Below, piece after piece: positions 9,022 to 35,821 of a DNA stretch of 64,000 bases (its first letter is position 1; each line of letters opens with the position of its first letter). A program made the position numbers and the translations under genes. This DNA is from Thermoanaerobaculia bacterium. GTDB taxonomy: Bacteria; Acidobacteriota; Thermoanaerobaculia; Gp7-AA8. Below the pieces are notes generated by a model, which saw only the letters and a program-made list of their open reading frames with translations, ran no database searches and was not told where the DNA came from. The stretch lies in contig JADGNY010000001.1 of the NCBI GenBank assembly GCA_017883235.1, forward strand, positions 124,001-188,000, written 5' to 3'.

Positions 9022-9132
9022 AATGTGGCACAGACACTCTTGTCTGTGCCGGCTCTCGCCATGACTTAGATCGCAAGCACTCCCAGCCAGCGGCTCCGGC
9101 CGGGGCACAGACAAGAGTGTCTGTGCCACATT
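9022..9132. repeat. Palindromic dispersed repeat, copy A (29-bp perfect terminal inverted repeats)
   Basis: AATGTGGCACAGACACTCTTGTCTGTGCC (9022-9050) and its exact reverse complement (9104-9132). Confidence 0.95.
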
Positions 9133-17296: not shown

Positions 17297-17407
17297 GATG
17301 TGGCACAGACACTCTTGTCTGTGCCGGATCTCGCCACGACTGAAGATGCAAGCCCTTTGCGGCGGCGGCTCCGGCCTGAGCACAGACAAGAGTGTCTGTG
17401 CCACATC
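17297..17407. repeat. Palindromic dispersed repeat, copy B
   Basis: GATGTGGCACAGACACTCTTGTCTGTGC / GCACAGACAAGAGTGTCTGTGCCACATC; interior alignable to copy A. Confidence 0.95.
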
Positions 17408-19113: not shown

Positions 19114-19884
19114 CTACCAGAATGAGCCCACTCGGCGATCCATCTCCATTGGCGAGATGTAGTGATCCATCCCGTTGCGAAGGATGAAGCAAAACCGGAT
19201 GTCTTCTTCGCTTGCCCGCAGAAGGGCCTGTTCCATCGCACGCAAGTCTTCACCCAAAAGGATTTCTTCATGCACCGCGGCCATCAGCTCACGGATTGTC
19301 AGCAATCCCTCAGACGCGTCGTACCAGACCACGCGCTCCCCTCGGATATCGTCCGCGAATCCGAATGATGAGATCGGACGCACTCCACGTGCGAGGCATA
19401 ACTCATCGAGGGAGGCACAACGCCGGGCAACTACGGCTCCGTGTCTGAACGCATCGTGCCTTCCGATCCGGGATTCGAAATAGGGAACGATGCGCGCGCG
19501 CATCGAGTCACGGACACCACCGATGACCATCCCATACCCGAAGCAGAACGTGAAGTACCCGGCAAATAGAACGCCGAACAGGTTGAACGGAGATCGTGTT
19601 GCCGGTGTCAACAGTGCTGTTGCGGAAACCCACAAGGCGCTCAACGGCAAGTCCCGTGAGAGGAAGCCCGCAGCCAAGCGACCCCGCCACGCCGACGATG
19701 GCCGTCCGCAAGTGACGCCGAGGATAACCACCGATGTACCAAAACTCACTCCTCGTTCGACGATCGATCGCGTTTCGTCGTTACATCGACTTCGGGTGGT
19801 TGGGAGTGAGAAATTGCAACCCGCGAAGGGCCTGCTACTCAAGCACGAAACGACGGATACCTGCCACGCGATCAAAGCCGGCAT
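19114..19884 (-). CDS. Hypothetical membrane protein (start uncertain)
   Basis: TM-like 'SPFNLFGVLFAGYFTFCFGYGMVIGG' then soluble domain ending 'GMDHYISPMEMDRRVGSFW'; N-terminal ~45 aa may not be coding. Confidence 0.55.
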   Translation of the reverse strand: MPALIAWQVSVVSCLSSRPFAGCNFSLPTTRSRCNDETRSIVERGVSFGTSVVILGVTCGRPSSAWRGRLAAGFLSRDLPLSALWVSATALLTPATRSPFNLFGVLFAGYFTFCFGYGMVIGGVRDSMRARIVPYFESRIGRHDAFRHGAVVARRCASLDELCLARGVRPISSFGFADDIRGERVVWYDASEGLLTIRELMAAVHEEILLGEDLRAMEQALLRASEEDIRFCFILRNGMDHYISPMEMDRRVGSFW

Positions 19885-20239
19885 CGAACGTGGCGATCCA
19901 CTCGATGCCGCGATTCAGCATAACGGCCGCGTGCACGGCATCGCGAGCGGATAGGCCCTGATGCTCCGCCAAGAGGTCGCGCGCACGATTCGTATCCGCA
20001 AGCGTGACGTCGAAGACCTTCGGACAAATGGCTACGAAGAGGTCGTAGACCTCGCGCCCCAGATCTAAACGGTGCAACTCAGAGTAGCGATAGAGAATCT
20101 CCTGGAGGACCTCGGTGCTCGTACAACCCTCAATTTCGTTTCGACGCACGGATTCAAGGAAGCGCAAGGAAGGCTCGCGATGCGGGTGTTCGCGTCCCGC
20201 CACGTACATCGGGATGTTCGCATCGATGAAAACGATCAC
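19835..20239 (-). CDS. PIN-domain (VapC-like) toxin
   Basis: MIVFIDANIPMYVAG..., 'LSARDAVHAAVMLNRGIEWIATFDAGFDRV'. Confidence 0.9.
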   Translation of the reverse strand: MIVFIDANIPMYVAGREHPHREPSLRFLESVRRNEIEGCTSTEVLQEILYRYSELHRLDLGREVYDLFVAICPKVFDVTLADTNRARDLLAEHQGLSARDAVHAAVMLNRGIEWIATFDAGFDRVAGIRRFVLE

Positions 20240-20451
20240 CGGCGTCCGGCTGCGATCTCTGCGAGCATCTGCTCAATGTCGGCCGTCGGTGCGTTCAGAG
20301 CGGCGAGCCGCGCCAGTGGATCGAAAGCGTCATCCGTCTCGATCGAGACGCGAACCATAGCGTGATCGCTCACGCCCGTCAGAGGCTCAACCAAGCGGAG
20401 CGTGTTTTCGCTGGCGTCATACTCGGCAACGATAGCGCGTGACATCGACAA
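20236..20451 (-). CDS. Cognate antitoxin of PIN toxin
   Basis: 71 aa, immediately upstream, ATGA overlap with PIN gene. Confidence 0.7.
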   Translation of the reverse strand: MSMSRAIVAEYDASENTLRLVEPLTGVSDHAMVRVSIETDDAFDPLARLAALNAPTADIEQMLAEIAAGRR

Positions 20452-24071: not shown

Positions 24072-24194
24072 CTGCCAAGCTCCGGCACAGACAAGAGTGT
24101 CTGTGCCACATTCGGCCCGGCAAGACTCCACCATGCTGCTACTACCGACGGCCAATGTGGCACAGACACTCTTGTCTGTGCCGGAGCTTGGCAG
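24072..24194. repeat. Palindromic dispersed repeat, copy C (inverted arrangement, 41-bp arms)
   Basis: CTGCCAAGCTCCGGCACAGACAAGAGTGTCTGTGCCACATT and its reverse complement 24154-24194. Confidence 0.95.
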
Positions 24195-24220: not shown

Positions 24221-24488
24221 CTACTTCGAAACCGACTTCTCAGCCATTCGTTCCTGAACCCAGAGATTCAAAAGCGTCTCCGGCGAGACACCCTGAGCAT
24301 CCGCTGCTGTCCGAAGTTGTTCGGCCAGATCTCGCTGCAGTGGAAGTAGATCGACGAGCTCCGAAGGTCGACTTCAAACTCCGCTGGGTTCGTCTGATCC
24401 CAGTGGTCGCTCAGATCGTATCGTCCCAGTACTCACCGACGGCCTCGTGAGACGAGGAGCCCGAGATAGGTGTTTTACGTTCGCACAT
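24221..24488 (-). pseudogene. Decayed CopG-family antitoxin (two frameshifts)
   Basis: Frame pieces: MCERKTPISGSSSHEAVGEYWDDT / DLSDHWDQTNPAEFEVDLRSS / LVDLLPLQRDLAEQLRTAADAQGVSPETLLNLWVQERMAEKSVSK*, together one CopG/BrnA-like antitoxin. Confidence 0.75.
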
Positions 24489-24514
24489 ACACGATCCGCG
24501 CCGCGACGATGACG

Positions 24515-25693
24515 TCAAATCTCGTTTACGGCCACGCTGGTTCGAACATGTGGAGAGTGTGGCAAGCCCGAAGCGACGTCAGGCAAGGCCTGCCGGATGG
24601 TTTCGGTAAGTAGCGCAATGCGGACGCCGACCAAGACTTCGAGCCTCTGCCACCATTCGATCGTTAAGGCGATGACCTGAGGTCGAGCCGTTTGATTGTC
24701 GATCTCCTCGAAGGTACCAAGCTTAAAGACCGGCCCGCCGCTCATCCCATATGGTTCAGGGACGGCAACGATCTTCCCGAAACGATCCACCATCCGTTCT
24801 CTCTCGAATGACATGATGAAGTGCGTTCGAGGATCGTAGCCGAGGCGCTCATACTTGTCTCGCCCTGACGGCTGGCCGCCGTAATAAACCGTGCTTTGTT
24901 GAAACTTGAAGCCAGGCAGCGGTCTATTCTCGGAGCCGGGAAATCCGACAAAGCCATATGAAGTCTGGCTTGCCGGCAAATCGCCGACATCGAGGTCTGA
25001 TGGCGACAGCGGTGGAGTACCTGGTGGCTCCAGCATTGCGGCTGTGTCAAGAACGAGAAAAGCGATGTCGTGCTCGAAATCTGGCGTGCCAGTGTCCCGC
25101 GAAGGCCCCGTTGAATATGCAACCCCACCGAAAGGAACGATCCTCGTTTGGCCGGGCATCTGGAGGTTGAATTGGTTCCGCGCGTGAAGAACATGCGCCG
25201 CCGTAACGAGTATCAGTCTCTCGTGGAGCTGAAGGAGAAACCCTGATCCGATCGGTGCTCCCTCGTCCCCACGGACTCCGTAGATTGGGCAGACAAACTG
25301 TTGCACTTCATGCTCGAGCCCAGCCAAAGTCGCATGAAATCGCCTCACCCTATCGTCAGCCCCGTAAGGCGGCGCCGATGCCACAGCACTGACAAGGGAC
25401 TCGGCTCGTTTCTGATTAATCGATACGGGCGCGGAACGAGGGGCGACACCTGGTTCACCGCGGAGAAAACCGGCGATGCTAAGATCTTCGTCAAGCTCGG
25501 GCCAATGAAGACCTACACCATCTCCGATTACCTCGACGTTCTGGCGTTCGGCAGGTGAAGCAGCGAGCAAGCGCGGGAACCATGCAATGGGTACGGATAT
25601 GGTTCGACCGTCCGCGATACGAACGACGATGTCCGACTCGGTAACAGAGGCGTCGACCGCGCGCTGGTCAGTTTCGATAGCTGAAGTAGTCAT
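24515..25693 (-). CDS. DUF2442-like domain fused to trypsin-like serine peptidase
   Basis: N-term 'VTESDIVVRIADGRTISVPIAWFPRLLAASPAERQNVEVIGDGVGLHWPELDEDLSIAGFL' (DUF2442); C-term 'GSGFLLQLHERLILVTAAHVLHA...HDIAFLVLD...GMSGGPVFKLG' (trypsin-like His/Asp/Ser). Confidence 0.8.
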   Translation of the reverse strand: MTTSAIETDQRAVDASVTESDIVVRIADGRTISVPIAWFPRLLAASPAERQNVEVIGDGVGLHWPELDEDLSIAGFLRGEPGVAPRSAPVSINQKRAESLVSAVASAPPYGADDRVRRFHATLAGLEHEVQQFVCPIYGVRGDEGAPIGSGFLLQLHERLILVTAAHVLHARNQFNLQMPGQTRIVPFGGVAYSTGPSRDTGTPDFEHDIAFLVLDTAAMLEPPGTPPLSPSDLDVGDLPASQTSYGFVGFPGSENRPLPGFKFQQSTVYYGGQPSGRDKYERLGYDPRTHFIMSFERERMVDRFGKIVAVPEPYGMSGGPVFKLGTFEEIDNQTARPQVIALTIEWWQRLEVLVGVRIALLTETIRQALPDVASGLPHSPHVRTSVAVNEI

Positions 25694-25910
25694 TCCACTC
25701 ATCGACAAACTCATCACGGTGCCGGAGCACATGGATTGCGATCCGGTTCAACTCGTGCGAAGCAAATCCCGCACATGATGCCAGTTCCACCGGCTCTAGC
25801 CAAAACTTCGCATGCTTACGTCCCTCGCGGACGTGAATGTGAGGAGGCTCTCCGCGCTCGTTGCTGTGAAAATAGAATCGGTAAGGACCGATCGTTACGA
25901 TGCCTGGCAA
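25668..25910 (-). CDS. DUF4160 domain protein
   Basis: MPGIVTIGPYRFYFHSNERGEPPHIHVREGRKHAKFWLEPVELA: canonical DUF4160. Confidence 0.9.
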   Translation of the reverse strand: MPGIVTIGPYRFYFHSNERGEPPHIHVREGRKHAKFWLEPVELASCAGFASHELNRIAIHVLRHRDEFVDEWNDYFSYRN

Positions 25911-25943
25911 GGTTCATCCTCGCATTCACATTTGATCGTTCCC

Positions 25944-27746: not shown

Positions 27747-28349
27747 ATGACTGACATACGCTTCCGCTTTCAACTTCCCAAGGTCCTCAACGCGCTGGCG
27801 TACTTCGCCTCGCATGGCATCCGTGATCTCACGAAGTTGAAAGCCGCGAAGTTGCTCTACTACGTGGACAAGTATCACCTCTTGAAATACGGACGGCCGG
27901 TGCTCGGCGATCACTACGTCTGCATGGACTTCGGACCCGTTCCCTCTGACACTCTCAACTTCCTGAACAATGCCCTGGGCCGCGAAGTCGAGTACGGACC
28001 CAAGTTCGAGCCCGTCCGCGAGCTGTTCGAGCGGACGTTGAGGATCGAGCCTGGGAAGAACCCGGTACTGGCAGCGGCGTCCGAGCCGGATACGTCGGTG
28101 TTCTCCGCCTCCGATCTCGAGGCGCTCGACCACGTCATCGAAAAGTACGGAAAGTACTCAGCGAGTGAGTTAGTCGACCTCACCCACGCGGATGCCACGT
28201 GGCAAGTTCCTGATCGTGTACGAGAGGCTGGCGGAACCGAGGAGATCCCGTATCAGCTCTTCTTCGAGAATACCGACGAAGACCTGCTCAAGTTCGTCGA
28301 GGCCGAGCAGGAGGATCGCGACTTCCTGTTGGCGCTGCAGCGGGCGTGA
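27747..28349 (+). CDS. Panacea-domain (SocA/GepA-like, DUF4065) protein, putative antitoxin
   Basis: 'KVLNALAYFASHGIRDLTKLKAAKLLYYVDKYHLLKYGRPVLGDHYVCMDFGPVPSDTLNFLNNAL'. Confidence 0.85.
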   Translation: MTDIRFRFQLPKVLNALAYFASHGIRDLTKLKAAKLLYYVDKYHLLKYGRPVLGDHYVCMDFGPVPSDTLNFLNNALGREVEYGPKFEPVRELFERTLRIEPGKNPVLAAASEPDTSVFSASDLEALDHVIEKYGKYSASELVDLTHADATWQVPDRVREAGGTEEIPYQLFFENTDEDLLKFVEAEQEDRDFLLALQRA

Positions 28350-28777
28350 TCCAGTTCCCAAAGAGTCTCGTCCTCGACCGGCTCAAAGAGCTGCGGCGAG
28401 GGTCAGTCTGCCGATGGTGGCACCCGGAGATGGATAAGGGGCGTGGACGCCACAAGTTCGCTGTGATCCTGAACCGCGAGTGGCCACCGGACGACGGCGT
28501 GGTCTTCTTTGCGCTTGCCACCTCGAAGACGAAGCACTTCGAATCGCGGTTCATGCAGGACTCCATCATTCGCATTCCTGGTCAGCGCTACTCCTTCCTG
28601 CCACTCGATACGATCGTGAAGTTGATGGAGATATCAACCATCGACATGCAAAGCCTGGCGGAAGCCACGAACCTGGAAATATCAGGCGATCTGACTGGGG
28701 ATGACATCGGCAATATCGATGGCGTGCTGAGTCGATCGAGGGTGATCGATGAGGCGATACTTGGTCGGATTCGATGA
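28346..28777 (+). CDS. Putative toxin partner, PemK/MazF-like fold (GTG start)
   Basis: Overlaps Panacea gene by 4 nt; 'GSVCRWWHPEMDKGRGRHKFAVILNREWPPDDGVVFFALATSK'. Confidence 0.55.
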   Translation: MIQFPKSLVLDRLKELRRGSVCRWWHPEMDKGRGRHKFAVILNREWPPDDGVVFFALATSKTKHFESRFMQDSIIRIPGQRYSFLPLDTIVKLMEISTIDMQSLAEATNLEISGDLTGDDIGNIDGVLSRSRVIDEAILGRIR

Positions 28778-28960
28778 CGGCGACCTCGGGCCGCCTTGAG
28801 TACGATGGCTCGAAACCAATCTTGCTTGTACGAGGGCACCTCATCCTACCGTCCAAGTGTCCCGAGGCCATCGGACGGTCTCGAAGACAATGATCTACAC
28901 TTACGTCCTTCAGCTGGCCACCACCAGGTGCGAAGCCTCGTGACGGGCAAGGGAGGTCCG

Positions 28961-30271
28961 ATGGAATGGAAACAACACTGTTACCGCGTTGGAAGCCATT
29001 CGGGAGGCTGGGACGATCTTCCTGCCGAGCCCGACGAACTAGACGCACTTATCTCAGCTTCGCGAAAACGCATTGAGCCTTGGCTATCGGCCGTATTCCA
29101 GGCAGAACACCTGAATCTTTTGTTGGGCAGTGGCTTCACTGCCGCCGTCGGATACATGTCGGGTGCTCCGGCCGCGAGTATGGCGACGGTGAAGTTCGGG
29201 ACAACGTACGATGCGGCCATCGACGCGCATGCGGAAGCTGGTGCCAAGGGAATGAAAAGGGCACCTGCGAATATCGAGGATCAGTTTCGCAGTGCCATTG
29301 CATTGCTGGAAGGGCTGGAGATAATCAACACTGGCGGCGCGGCCAAACTGCTCAAAACCGCCATAGGCACACAGATGTCCGCGTTCTTGGCGTCTTTGCT
29401 GAAGACAGAGAGCGGCATCGCAAAAGGAAAGGACCCGCCTTCCCGCGAGAAAGCCCAGGCTGCGCTTCAATCCTTCCTGTTGAGTTTCGCTAGCCGCGCC
29501 GCCTCTCGCGAACGACTCCACGCGTTCACCACCAACTATGACCGTCTGATCGAGCACGGATGCGATCTAGCCGGACTGCGTATCATCGACCGATTCGTCG
29601 GCGCGTTGAATCCCATTTTCAGAGCGTCCCGGGTCGAGGTGGACGTGCACTACAACCCGCCTGGCATTCGGGGTGAACCGCGATTCATGGAGGGCGTGAT
29701 CCGTCTCACCAAGCTGCACGGCTCGCTGGACTGGTTCTTCGACAAGGACGAACGGCGGATTCACCGCAAGGGGATCCCGTTCGGCGCGCCTGCTGACCAC
29801 ACCGACGTACCGAAGGAGCCTTTTGATACGGTGATGATTTATCCGAACGCAGCGAAGGACGTGGAAACCACGCAGTACCCCTACGCAGAACTGTTCCGCG
29901 ACTTAGCGGCTGCCGTCTGCCGTCCTAACGCCGTTGTGGTGACCTACGGGTACGGGTTTGGTGACGACCACGTCAACCGGGTCCTGCTGGACATGCTGAC
30001 GATTCCGTCCACGCACTTGGTCATCGTCGCGTACACGGGCAATGACCGCTTGAAGGCTTTCTGCGCGAAGACCCGAGACGCGCAGGTGTCGCTGCTGGTT
30101 GGTGAGCATTTTGCCGATCTTGGCACCTTGGTCGAGAACTACCTTCCCAAACCGGCGCTGGACTACATCACCGCTCGCATGACGGAGTTGATGAAGCATC
30201 GCCCAATTGACACAAAACCGGACGACCCATCGCCTTTTGTGGTCCCCCCGATAGGTGGCGGCGCGTGTTGA
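28961..30271 (+). CDS. SIR2-family NADase-like defence protein
   Basis: 'NLLLGSGFTAAVGY', 'FTTNYDRLIEHGCD', 'RLTKLHGSLDWFF', 'VVTYGYGFGDDHVNRVL'. Confidence 0.88.
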   Translation: MEWKQHCYRVGSHSGGWDDLPAEPDELDALISASRKRIEPWLSAVFQAEHLNLLLGSGFTAAVGYMSGAPAASMATVKFGTTYDAAIDAHAEAGAKGMKRAPANIEDQFRSAIALLEGLEIINTGGAAKLLKTAIGTQMSAFLASLLKTESGIAKGKDPPSREKAQAALQSFLLSFASRAASRERLHAFTTNYDRLIEHGCDLAGLRIIDRFVGALNPIFRASRVEVDVHYNPPGIRGEPRFMEGVIRLTKLHGSLDWFFDKDERRIHRKGIPFGAPADHTDVPKEPFDTVMIYPNAAKDVETTQYPYAELFRDLAAAVCRPNAVVVTYGYGFGDDHVNRVLLDMLTIPSTHLVIVAYTGNDRLKAFCAKTRDAQVSLLVGEHFADLGTLVENYLPKPALDYITARMTELMKHRPIDTKPDDPSPFVVPPIGGGAC

Positions 30272-30278
30272 GGCAAAT

Positions 30279-32373
30279 ATGACGACCCCCATCGAGCGAT
30301 TGGCGAATCTTGTGGTAGGCGCAGTCGAGTCCGTGTCCGGACGAAGTTCGCGTACTGTTGGACCTCGACGCGCCACACGCCACGGCGTTGAACACCGGCA
30401 CACCCTCGGCCTTTCCACGCCTGAATGGGTACGTTCTCATACCGAACGAAGCCGGAGCGACCGTCGCGTATATCGTCTGGATCGGCATCGAACGCTCGCC
30501 GTATCCAAAGCGGGCGGGGCTCAAGGACTTCGGCTTGATCGATCTCCCGTTCCCGCTGCGCAAGATGTCAGTGTCGCCAGTCGGGACGTTGACCTCTCGG
30601 CCCGATCGGGCGTTAGGTACTACGAAGTACGAACTGTCGCGCGGTGTGGTGGCCTTTCCCTCTGTCGGTGACCAAGTCCTGATCCCGACGCCGGAGCAGG
30701 TGGAGGCTATCGTCGGGGGTAAGGACAGCGACAAGCGAGTGCGAATCGGCGCTTCGCCCATGGCGTCCAACGCCTCTATCGTTGTGGACCCTGACAAGCT
30801 CTTCGGGCGGCATCTTGCAGTGCTGGGCAACACTGGAAGCGGGAAATCCTGCACGGTTGCCGGACTGATACGGTGGTCCATGGATGCTGCGAGGAAAGCT
30901 ATTCGGGACGAGGGGAAGATAGGCGTACCGAATGCGCGCTTTATCGTGCTCGACCCGAACGGCGAATATGCCACGGCGTTCGCAGACCAAGGGGACAAGT
31001 TACGCTTGTTTCGTGTTCCTCCAGTGGTCGGTGTCGAGCGCCCGCTGGACGTTCCCGCCTGGTTGTGGAGCGGGCATGAATGGACTGCTGTGGCTCACGC
31101 ACAACCTGGGGCGCAACGTCCGCTGCTCATGCAGGGTCTTCGCGAGCTGAAAAGCGGGCAAATGGAAGGCGTACCACGCGAGGCTACTATTCGCCGATAC
31201 TTGGTGTCGTACTCAACTCGGATTTCTGCATTGCTGAGCACGGGAACGCAGACATTCGCGGGTGGTCCGCGCCCGAGATTCGACTGCGCTCATTTGCTTG
31301 AAGCGATTGCGCACGACTGCGCGCAGTTCGCTGAAGAAGTAGAGCATCCAACCAGCGACCAACTCTTAGCGATAGATAGACAGACGACCGAAGTTATTAA
31401 CGCACGTAGGAGTAAGGGCAATCCTAAGTTTTTTGACGACTTCATGATAACTGACCTTGAGGAGGTCCGAAGGAGTCTCGACGCGCTAGCCAGGACACTA
31501 CCTGACTTGGGGAGCGCAGCACCGATCGGTGAAGATGCGCCGATATTCTTCGACGTGAACATGCTTGCAGAGCATTTGAATAGGGTTGCGACCGAGCAGG
31601 GAGGCAACGTTGCAGGGTTCATCTCGACACTGGGATTACGTATCCGCGGAATGCTAGCTGACCCACGCCTCGGGGCCGTGATTGGGCGCGATCCGCCAAC
31701 GACCTTCGGTACTTGGCTGAAAGACTACGTCGGTGACAACGGTTCAAGCAACGGTCAACTTGCTGTAGTCGATCTTTCACTAGTCCCTTCGGAGGTCGTC
31801 CACATCGTCGTTTCCGTTCTGGCCCGATTGATATTCGAGTCATTGCAGCGATACCGGCGTAGTCATCCAACGGGGCAGACCTTACCCACGGTGCTAATTC
31901 TCGAAGAGGCACATACGTTCGTTCGGCGAGGTAGAGACGACGATGGTCCGGCAGAGAATCCGAGCCACCTCTGCCGCGAAACATTCGAGCGCATCGCACG
32001 CGAGGGCCGTAAGTTTGGCTTGGGGTTGGTGCTATCTTCGCAGCGACCTTCGGAATTGTCACCAACAGTGTTGGCCCAATGCAACACGTTTATTTTGCAT
32101 AGGATTGTCAACGACGCCGACCAGAATCTCGTTGCCCGCTTGGTACCCGACAACGTAGGTGGATTGCTCCGAGAGTTGCCTAGTCTCCCGTCTCGACAAG
32201 CTATTCTGTTGGGTTGGGCCACGCCGATTCCAATGCTGGTAGAGATCGAGGAACTTCCTTACGAACACCGCCCACGATCCGCCGACCCTGATTTCTGGGA
32301 CGTTTGGACCTTGGCGGAAGAGCGAACGGTGGATTGGAGTGCAATCGCTAAGAACTGGTCAGGCGAGAGCTAA
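30279..32373 (+). CDS. HerA-like ATPase (DUF87), apparent frameshift near codon 22
   Basis: Walker A 'VLGNTGSGKSCTVAGLI', Walker B 'TVLILEEAHTFV', 'LVLSSQRPSELSPTVLAQCNTFILHRI'. N-term MTTPIERLANLVVGAVESVSG is in another frame from DEVRVLLDLDAPHATALN.... Confidence 0.88.
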
Positions 32374-35485: not shown

Positions 35486-35821
35486 TGCGCTGCGCGCGTT
35501 GTCTGCGGCTTCGCCGCGTTGTCGGTTGTCTGCGCTGCGGCGCGTTGGGGATTCGCGCGGCTGCGCCGCAGGGCACAGACAAGAGTGTCTGTGCCACATT
35601 TGATCTGCGGCTTCGGCGGGCTGCTGGGTTGTCGCCGCGGAGAGCGGGCGTCTCGCCTGCTCTCCGCGGCGATAACCGGCAACACGCACGAATCGCGCAG
35701 ACAAATGTGGCACAGACACTCCTGTCTGTGCCCAGCGGCGCAGCCGCGCGAAACCCCGGCAACGCGCCGCAGCGCAGACAACCGACAACGCGGCGAAGCC
35801 GCAGACAACGCGCGAAGCGCA
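35486..35821. repeat. 336-bp giant nested palindrome containing copy D of the GGCACAGACA element
   Basis: TGCGCTGCGCGCGTTGTCTGCGGCTTCGCCGCGTTGTCGGTTGTCTGCGCTGCGGCGCGTT...GGGCACAGACAAGAGTGTCTGTGCCACATTT and complementary arm ending ...CGCGCGAAGCGCA. Confidence 0.95.

Follow-up and report, generated by a model that had tools for sequence, protein, structure and literature searches.

A probable DhiTA-type toxin-antitoxin module whose antitoxin is fused to a trypsin-like serine protease

DUF4160 and DUF2442 proteins form tested toxin-antitoxin (TA) modules in two bacterial systems. In Dickeya dadantii, the DUF4160 protein encoded by dhiT is toxic in E. coli and the DUF2442 protein encoded by dhiA relieves that toxicity; the toxin gene comes first, and the pair represses its own promoter, a property demonstrated for dhiTA only (PMC8198452). 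The same pair makes up the Thermus PEM module, in which a DUF4160 toxin of 87 aa precedes a DUF2442 antitoxin of 92 aa. The second PEM ORF neutralises the first, the module stabilises plasmids and improves their persistence, and a Thermus plasmid without the second ORF failed to become established (PMC12724237). Trypsin-like proteases are known from other conflict systems. In Hachiman and AVAST, such a protease activates a pro-effector encoded immediately upstream (PMC12799240), and in the effector-associated-domain/Trypco systems trypsin-like peptidases are joined to small adaptor domains (PMC7159879).

The locus described here lies in a 64,000-nucleotide stretch of a Thermoanaerobaculia bacterium contig (the window, to which coordinates refer unless another locus is named), and it resembles dhiTA in both domains, in the toxin gene being first and in the overlap of the two genes. 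A DUF4160 gene (25668-25910, minus strand; 80 aa from a TTG start) is situated immediately 5' of, and overlaps, a DUF2442 gene, which is the canonical TA geometry. Whereas DhiA is a stand-alone antitoxin, the corresponding protein in the window continues for another 310 residues, which include a protease. A single uninterrupted frame (24515-25693, minus strand; 392 aa counted from a conserved ATG) encodes the DUF2442 antitoxin-type domain (25451-25693; aa 1-81), a linker and helix (25334-25450; aa 82-120), and a trypsin-like serine protease domain (24518-25333; aa 121-392) that has a chymotrypsin fold with its His, Asp and Ser residues intact. The domains and their order are also those of Thermus PEM, which, unlike the window locus, lacks a protease and is plasmid-borne. 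We estimate a probability of about 85% that the locus is a DhiTA-type module with a fused protease, with the toxin and antitoxin roles taken from the literature on dhiTA and PEM. This kind of TA module is already known; what is new is the intact antitoxin-protease fusion, which is unique so far in the data searched.

Reading the fusion frame from an upstream ATG at 25732 (24515-25732, minus strand) yields a protein of 405 aa, but we place the start at the ATG at 25693, which is conserved among related DUF2442 proteins. With this start, the overlap with the DUF4160 gene that had been noted in the preliminary description shrinks from 65 bp, as given by the mechanically called ORF, to 26 bp; it is 3 bp in dhiTA. 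As read from the sequence, the TTG start of the DUF4160 gene follows shortly after an in-frame stop and has a GAGG ribosome-binding-like site just 5' of it. Since a same-strand DUF1573 gene ends only 33 bp before this start, there is little space for a promoter of the operon's own, and transcription may occur by read-through from the DUF1573 gene.

Both TA domains that had been proposed are confirmed. The DUF4160 protein matches Pfam PF13711 (E 7.6e-18) and keeps the consensus of its family in all but three of the alignment columns conserved to 80% or more. It is homologous to the NCBIfam family toxin_DhiT (E 4.7e-7, 30 bits) yet falls below the narrow equivalog cut-off of 100, and so we call the pair DhiTA-type rather than DhiTA. 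Its AlphaFold model has a mean pLDDT of 92.5 and finds no PDB match at E<=0.001 that would point to a toxin mechanism. The DUF2442 domain (PF10387, aa 32-94 of the 405-aa ORF, E 2.3e-19) likewise differs at only three of the columns conserved to at least 80%, each change being hydrophobic for hydrophobic, and its structural relatives include PDB entries 3k8r and 2x8n. Across the same genome and its phylum, a DUF4160 gene is found directly 5' of DUF2442 in 27 of the 32 DUF2442 loci examined, and in most of these loci the domain hits overlap by 17 bp, exactly as in the window. The preliminary description had correctly seen the pair as TA-like, but had cast DUF4160 and DUF2442 as a sensor or inhibitor that gates the protease. 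Because in both tested systems DUF4160 acts as the toxin and DUF2442 counteracts it (PMC8198452, PMC12724237), the locus is better read as a TA operon with a protease-bearing antitoxin than as a DUF4160-gated protease.

The proposed fusion to a trypsin-like protease is borne out by the continuous frame, by the catalytic residues and by the predicted structure. In Pfam, Trypsin_2 (PF13365) aligns with aa 162-337 of the 405-aa ORF at E 6e-6 and 27.5 bits, marginally missing the cut-off of 27.6, and the score in a genome-wide search is 28.2, which is above it. His167 (VTAAHV; codon 25193-25195), Asp209 (HDIAF; 25067-25069) and Ser318 (GMSGG; 24740-24742), all on the minus strand, are invariant in an alignment of the fusion and 25 relatives. 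The AlphaFold model places residues 121-392 in a chymotrypsin fold with confidence mostly about 90-97, and its PDB matches include factor XII, urokinase and HtrA1 (4xe4, E 3e-8; HtrA1 8sdp, E 1.7e-7). By its residues, the domain is a catalytically complete and apparently active trypsin-like protease. It also retains the N-terminal helix of its family, and thus both halves of the fusion look complete. The connecting linker is modelled at low confidence (pLDDT about 30-52 over residues 81-110), and cleavage might occur within aa 82-120. A weak match of the protease to the PADLOC model LmuA (E 0.0017) is too generic to mark it as a defence protease, since this model gives about 1e-9 for two of the genome's three ordinary HtrA-like proteases. 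We also rejected a recent copy of a local protease as the source of the domain, given that the genome's paralogue (contig C100) is only 30% identical.

The fusion differs in several respects from the nuclease-protease pairs of Hachiman, AVAST, Lamassu and DRT (PMC12799240). The protease is N-terminal in those pairs and C-terminal here; their partner is a metallo-beta-lactamase-fold (MBL) pro-nuclease rather than a DUF4160 protein, and the fused protein is HamA, Avs1a or LmuA rather than DUF2442. No MBL-type pro-nuclease lies upstream of the window fusion, where the first gene encodes DUF4160 and the next DUF1573. The joining of a trypsin-like peptidase to a small domain recalls the effector-associated-domain/Trypco systems. 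However, the main text of PMC7159879 makes no mention of DUF2442, and Pfam detected no Trypco, EAD, vWA or MoxR domain in the ten genes scanned around the locus.

The two genes, and only these, make up an insert of approximately 1.45 kb that is missing from two congeneric genomes. The flanking genes are 1,933 bp apart in the window and 437 and 407 bp apart in these genomes (G401 and G254). Because G254 aligns with positions 24368-24489, we place the insert at about 24490-25943. Alignment of the edges revealed no clear target-site duplication. GC3 is 0.59 for DUF4160, 0.53 for DUF2442 and 0.61 for the linker and protease, compared with 0.82-0.87 for the flanking genes. This low GC3, together with a single insert common to all three parts, indicates that DUF4160, DUF2442 and the protease were probably acquired as one unit, and, on the most parsimonious view, the fusion predates the arrival of the operon. 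An assembly chimera or frameshift is unlikely, given one frame for both halves, one clean insert and a similar composition.

The surroundings of the insert only partly match what had been described. A SIR2-HerA island is indeed nearby (PADLOC E 1e-199 for SIR2 and 2e-297 for HerA), but SIR2 starts at 28796, 2.9 kb rather than 2 kb away, and on the other strand. An adjacent TA pseudogene was not found; the nearest TA-like genes, encoding a Panacea/SocA antitoxin (27747-28349, plus strand) and a weakly PemK/MazF-like protein (28346-28777, plus strand), are open frames. These two genes form a tight same-strand run with SIR2 and HerA (27747-32373, plus strand), in which a Panacea TA pair stands directly before SIR2-HerA, and this arrangement has no alignment in the syntenic regions of the two same-genus genomes. 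Further away on the minus strand, an intact PIN-domain VapC-like toxin gene (19835-20239) and a small overlapping upstream gene (20236-20451) are probably a VapBC-type pair. In addition, the palindrome GGCACAGACAAGAGTGTCTGTGCC, a REP/BIME-like element, occurs as inverted pairs in four places in the window (9027-9127, 17302-17402, 24072-24194 and 35572-35732), with none expected by shuffling, and two of its copies bracket the stretch that holds the operon and the SIR2-HerA island.

How rare the fusion might be was judged from searches of about 1,550 genomes (drawn, with partial redundancy, from five phylum-level sets, the family of the organism and 12 individual genomes), 72,556 plasmids and 50,697 phage records. 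The query was the full fusion; the best few candidates were scored in each genome, and for the plasmids the best 20 matches were considered along with a count of records covering 80% of the query, which was zero. Among the matches listed in these collections there is no second DUF2442-trypsin fusion; every other match spans DUF2442 or the protease alone, never both.

DUF2442 is nevertheless joined to other C-terminal regions elsewhere. Behind a DUF4160-type gene, one locus (L138, 1287-1998, minus strand; the same place as L014) encodes DUF2442 fused to a LuxR-type HTH, and another with a DUF4160-type gene in front (L141, 1399-2359, plus strand) encodes DUF2442 with DUF6998. In a third (L132, 1149-2412, minus strand), DUF2442 is followed by a 240-residue region without a known domain, and the upstream gene is, judged by eye, remotely DUF4160-like. 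A long in-frame extension of DUF2442 at L140 (1444-2226, minus strand) looks PIN-like by eye where Pfam is silent, and an MMVCE-like string in it also occurs in the preceding gene; this is possibly an antitoxin-toxin fusion. Other long DUF2442 frames were not counted as fusions, either because they look like chance open frames (L127, L130, L131, L133 and L136) or like a broken module (L129). Together with the fusions to LuxR HTH, DUF6998 and others, the window protein appears to belong to a rare theme of C-terminal fusions, in which DUF2442 is a modular antitoxin domain and this protein is one of its rare forms.

The relatives of the protease are stand-alone, single-domain proteins, mostly of 250-300 aa (L046-L063, L035-L040 and L004), from proteobacterial, verrucomicrobial, Flavobacterium, Gemmatimonadetes and other genomes and from plasmids. 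They belong to the same family as the window domain and share its triad, but lack DUF2442 and DUF4160 and are 19-28% identical over the aligned fusion. The preliminary description had envisaged a conserved DUF2442-protease defence system. Homology to the DUF2442 HMM is strong, but neither DUF4160 nor DUF2442 is found near any of 28 protease relatives, and this, with the failure to find a second fusion among the matches listed, speaks against such a system. An all-against-all neighbour comparison also revealed no gene common to the stand-alone proteases, and the idea of a conserved partner was dropped.

Some of these relatives do adjoin defence genes. In Desulforhopalus singaporensis (L050, 4170-6729), a retron RT of the RT-Toprim_I-C type overlaps the protease gene by 8 bp, which points to a possible retron-protease association. 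Elsewhere the protease gene is directly 3' of Drt3b (L063, 3826-6765), of a long SIR2-pAgo (L056, 2424-6735) or of an HmaB methylase (L036, 1195-4765), and there is a restriction-enzyme-like neighbour at L046 and two PADLOC candidate genes at L048 and L057. Defence-gene neighbours were thus counted for 7 of 20 relatives and for about 8 of 75 stretches elsewhere on the same contigs (one-sided p about 0.014), where the comparison was made after the fact and the control count of 8 is a reading of the family tally rather than a direct protein count. With the four strongest cases alone (4 of 20), the difference is not significant (p 0.22). The enrichment is weak and modest, and a defence role for the fusion locus is possible on the basis of these neighbours. 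On plasmid pAltI4 (L039, 1037-2113), an MBL-fold hydrolase is encoded near a stand-alone protease on the opposite strand, an arrangement that recalls the MBL nuclease-protease pairs.

What the protease might do for the module can be framed as follows. The DUF2442 half would bind and silence the DUF4160 toxin, as in dhiTA, until infection, stress, clustering of the complex or a similar trigger switches the protease on. The active protease would then cut the antitoxin, its linker or the toxin complex, the toxin would be set free, and growth would stop. We put this triggered release forward tentatively, at somewhat less than even odds; that the protease attacks the TA complex is inferred, as are the trigger and a possible role against phages. 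The precedent of a trypsin-like protease that activates a pro-effector encoded upstream (PMC12799240) counts in its favour; against it are protease relatives that do without DUF2442 or DUF4160 and the modest defence enrichment. A more specific form of this best explanation, in which an infection-activated protease releases DUF4160 and the locus belongs to a set of self-triggered modules whose DUF2442 carries interchangeable C-terminal domains (protease, LuxR HTH, DUF6998 and others), is as a whole rather unlikely. The best explanation itself further draws on the domain matches, the frequent placing of DUF2442 behind DUF4160, the toxin-first order of dhiTA and PEM, the conserved toxin and antitoxin residues, the fold and triad, GC3, the insert, the other DUF2442 fusions and the defence genes beside several protease relatives.

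The main rival, whose probability is not much below that of triggered release, is that a mobile protease gene of the stand-alone kind inserted in frame downstream of a dhiTA module, and that the halves are independent with no action of the protease on the TA pair. Because the data contain only one DUF2442-trypsin fusion, conservation lends no support to a functional coupling of the halves. The lone occurrence among the listed matches, stand-alone relatives with no shared neighbour, and a protease that keeps its family's helix so that both halves seem complete all speak for this rival. Nonetheless, the reading frame is unbroken, the triad and both domains are complete, all parts share one composition and one insert, and the other C-terminal domains borne by DUF2442 hint at a tolerated or useful architecture. 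Overall, we find this passenger origin possible, if doubtful.

Closest to the idea of the preliminary description is a second effector: the protease would be tethered through DUF2442 to DUF4160 and quieted by the TA complex, the loss of which would free both toxin and protease against the cell. Conflict systems in which a protease is joined to a sensor or an adaptor domain (PMC7159879), and the defence genes beside some relatives, are consistent with this arrangement. However, DUF4160 is a toxin rather than an inhibitor in the tested relatives (PMC8198452, PMC12724237), and the missing DUF4160 linkage noted above weighs further against it, which makes it unlikely. The low-confidence and hence possibly exposed linker, together with the plasmid persistence conferred by PEM (PMC12724237), could also fit constant self-cleavage without sensing, which would keep the antitoxin short-lived and make the module an addiction element, but the locus lies on a chromosomal contig with conserved genes on either side, and we consider this improbable. 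Such self-cleavage would replace turnover by Lon or Clp and would agree with proteolysis being the usual means by which type II antitoxins are controlled.

The destruction of type II antitoxins is usually attributed to the Lon or Clp proteases of the cell. With a serine protease built into the antitoxin, this step would become testable in one small protein, and if triggered release is true, the fusion could free its own toxin on a trigger. The interest of the locus would be greater if the protease proves to control the toxin. The predicted fold of the DUF4160 toxin is without a significant PDB match, and its target is worth finding. The other DUF2442 fusions, in turn, suggest a modular platform in an antitoxin family that has received little study.
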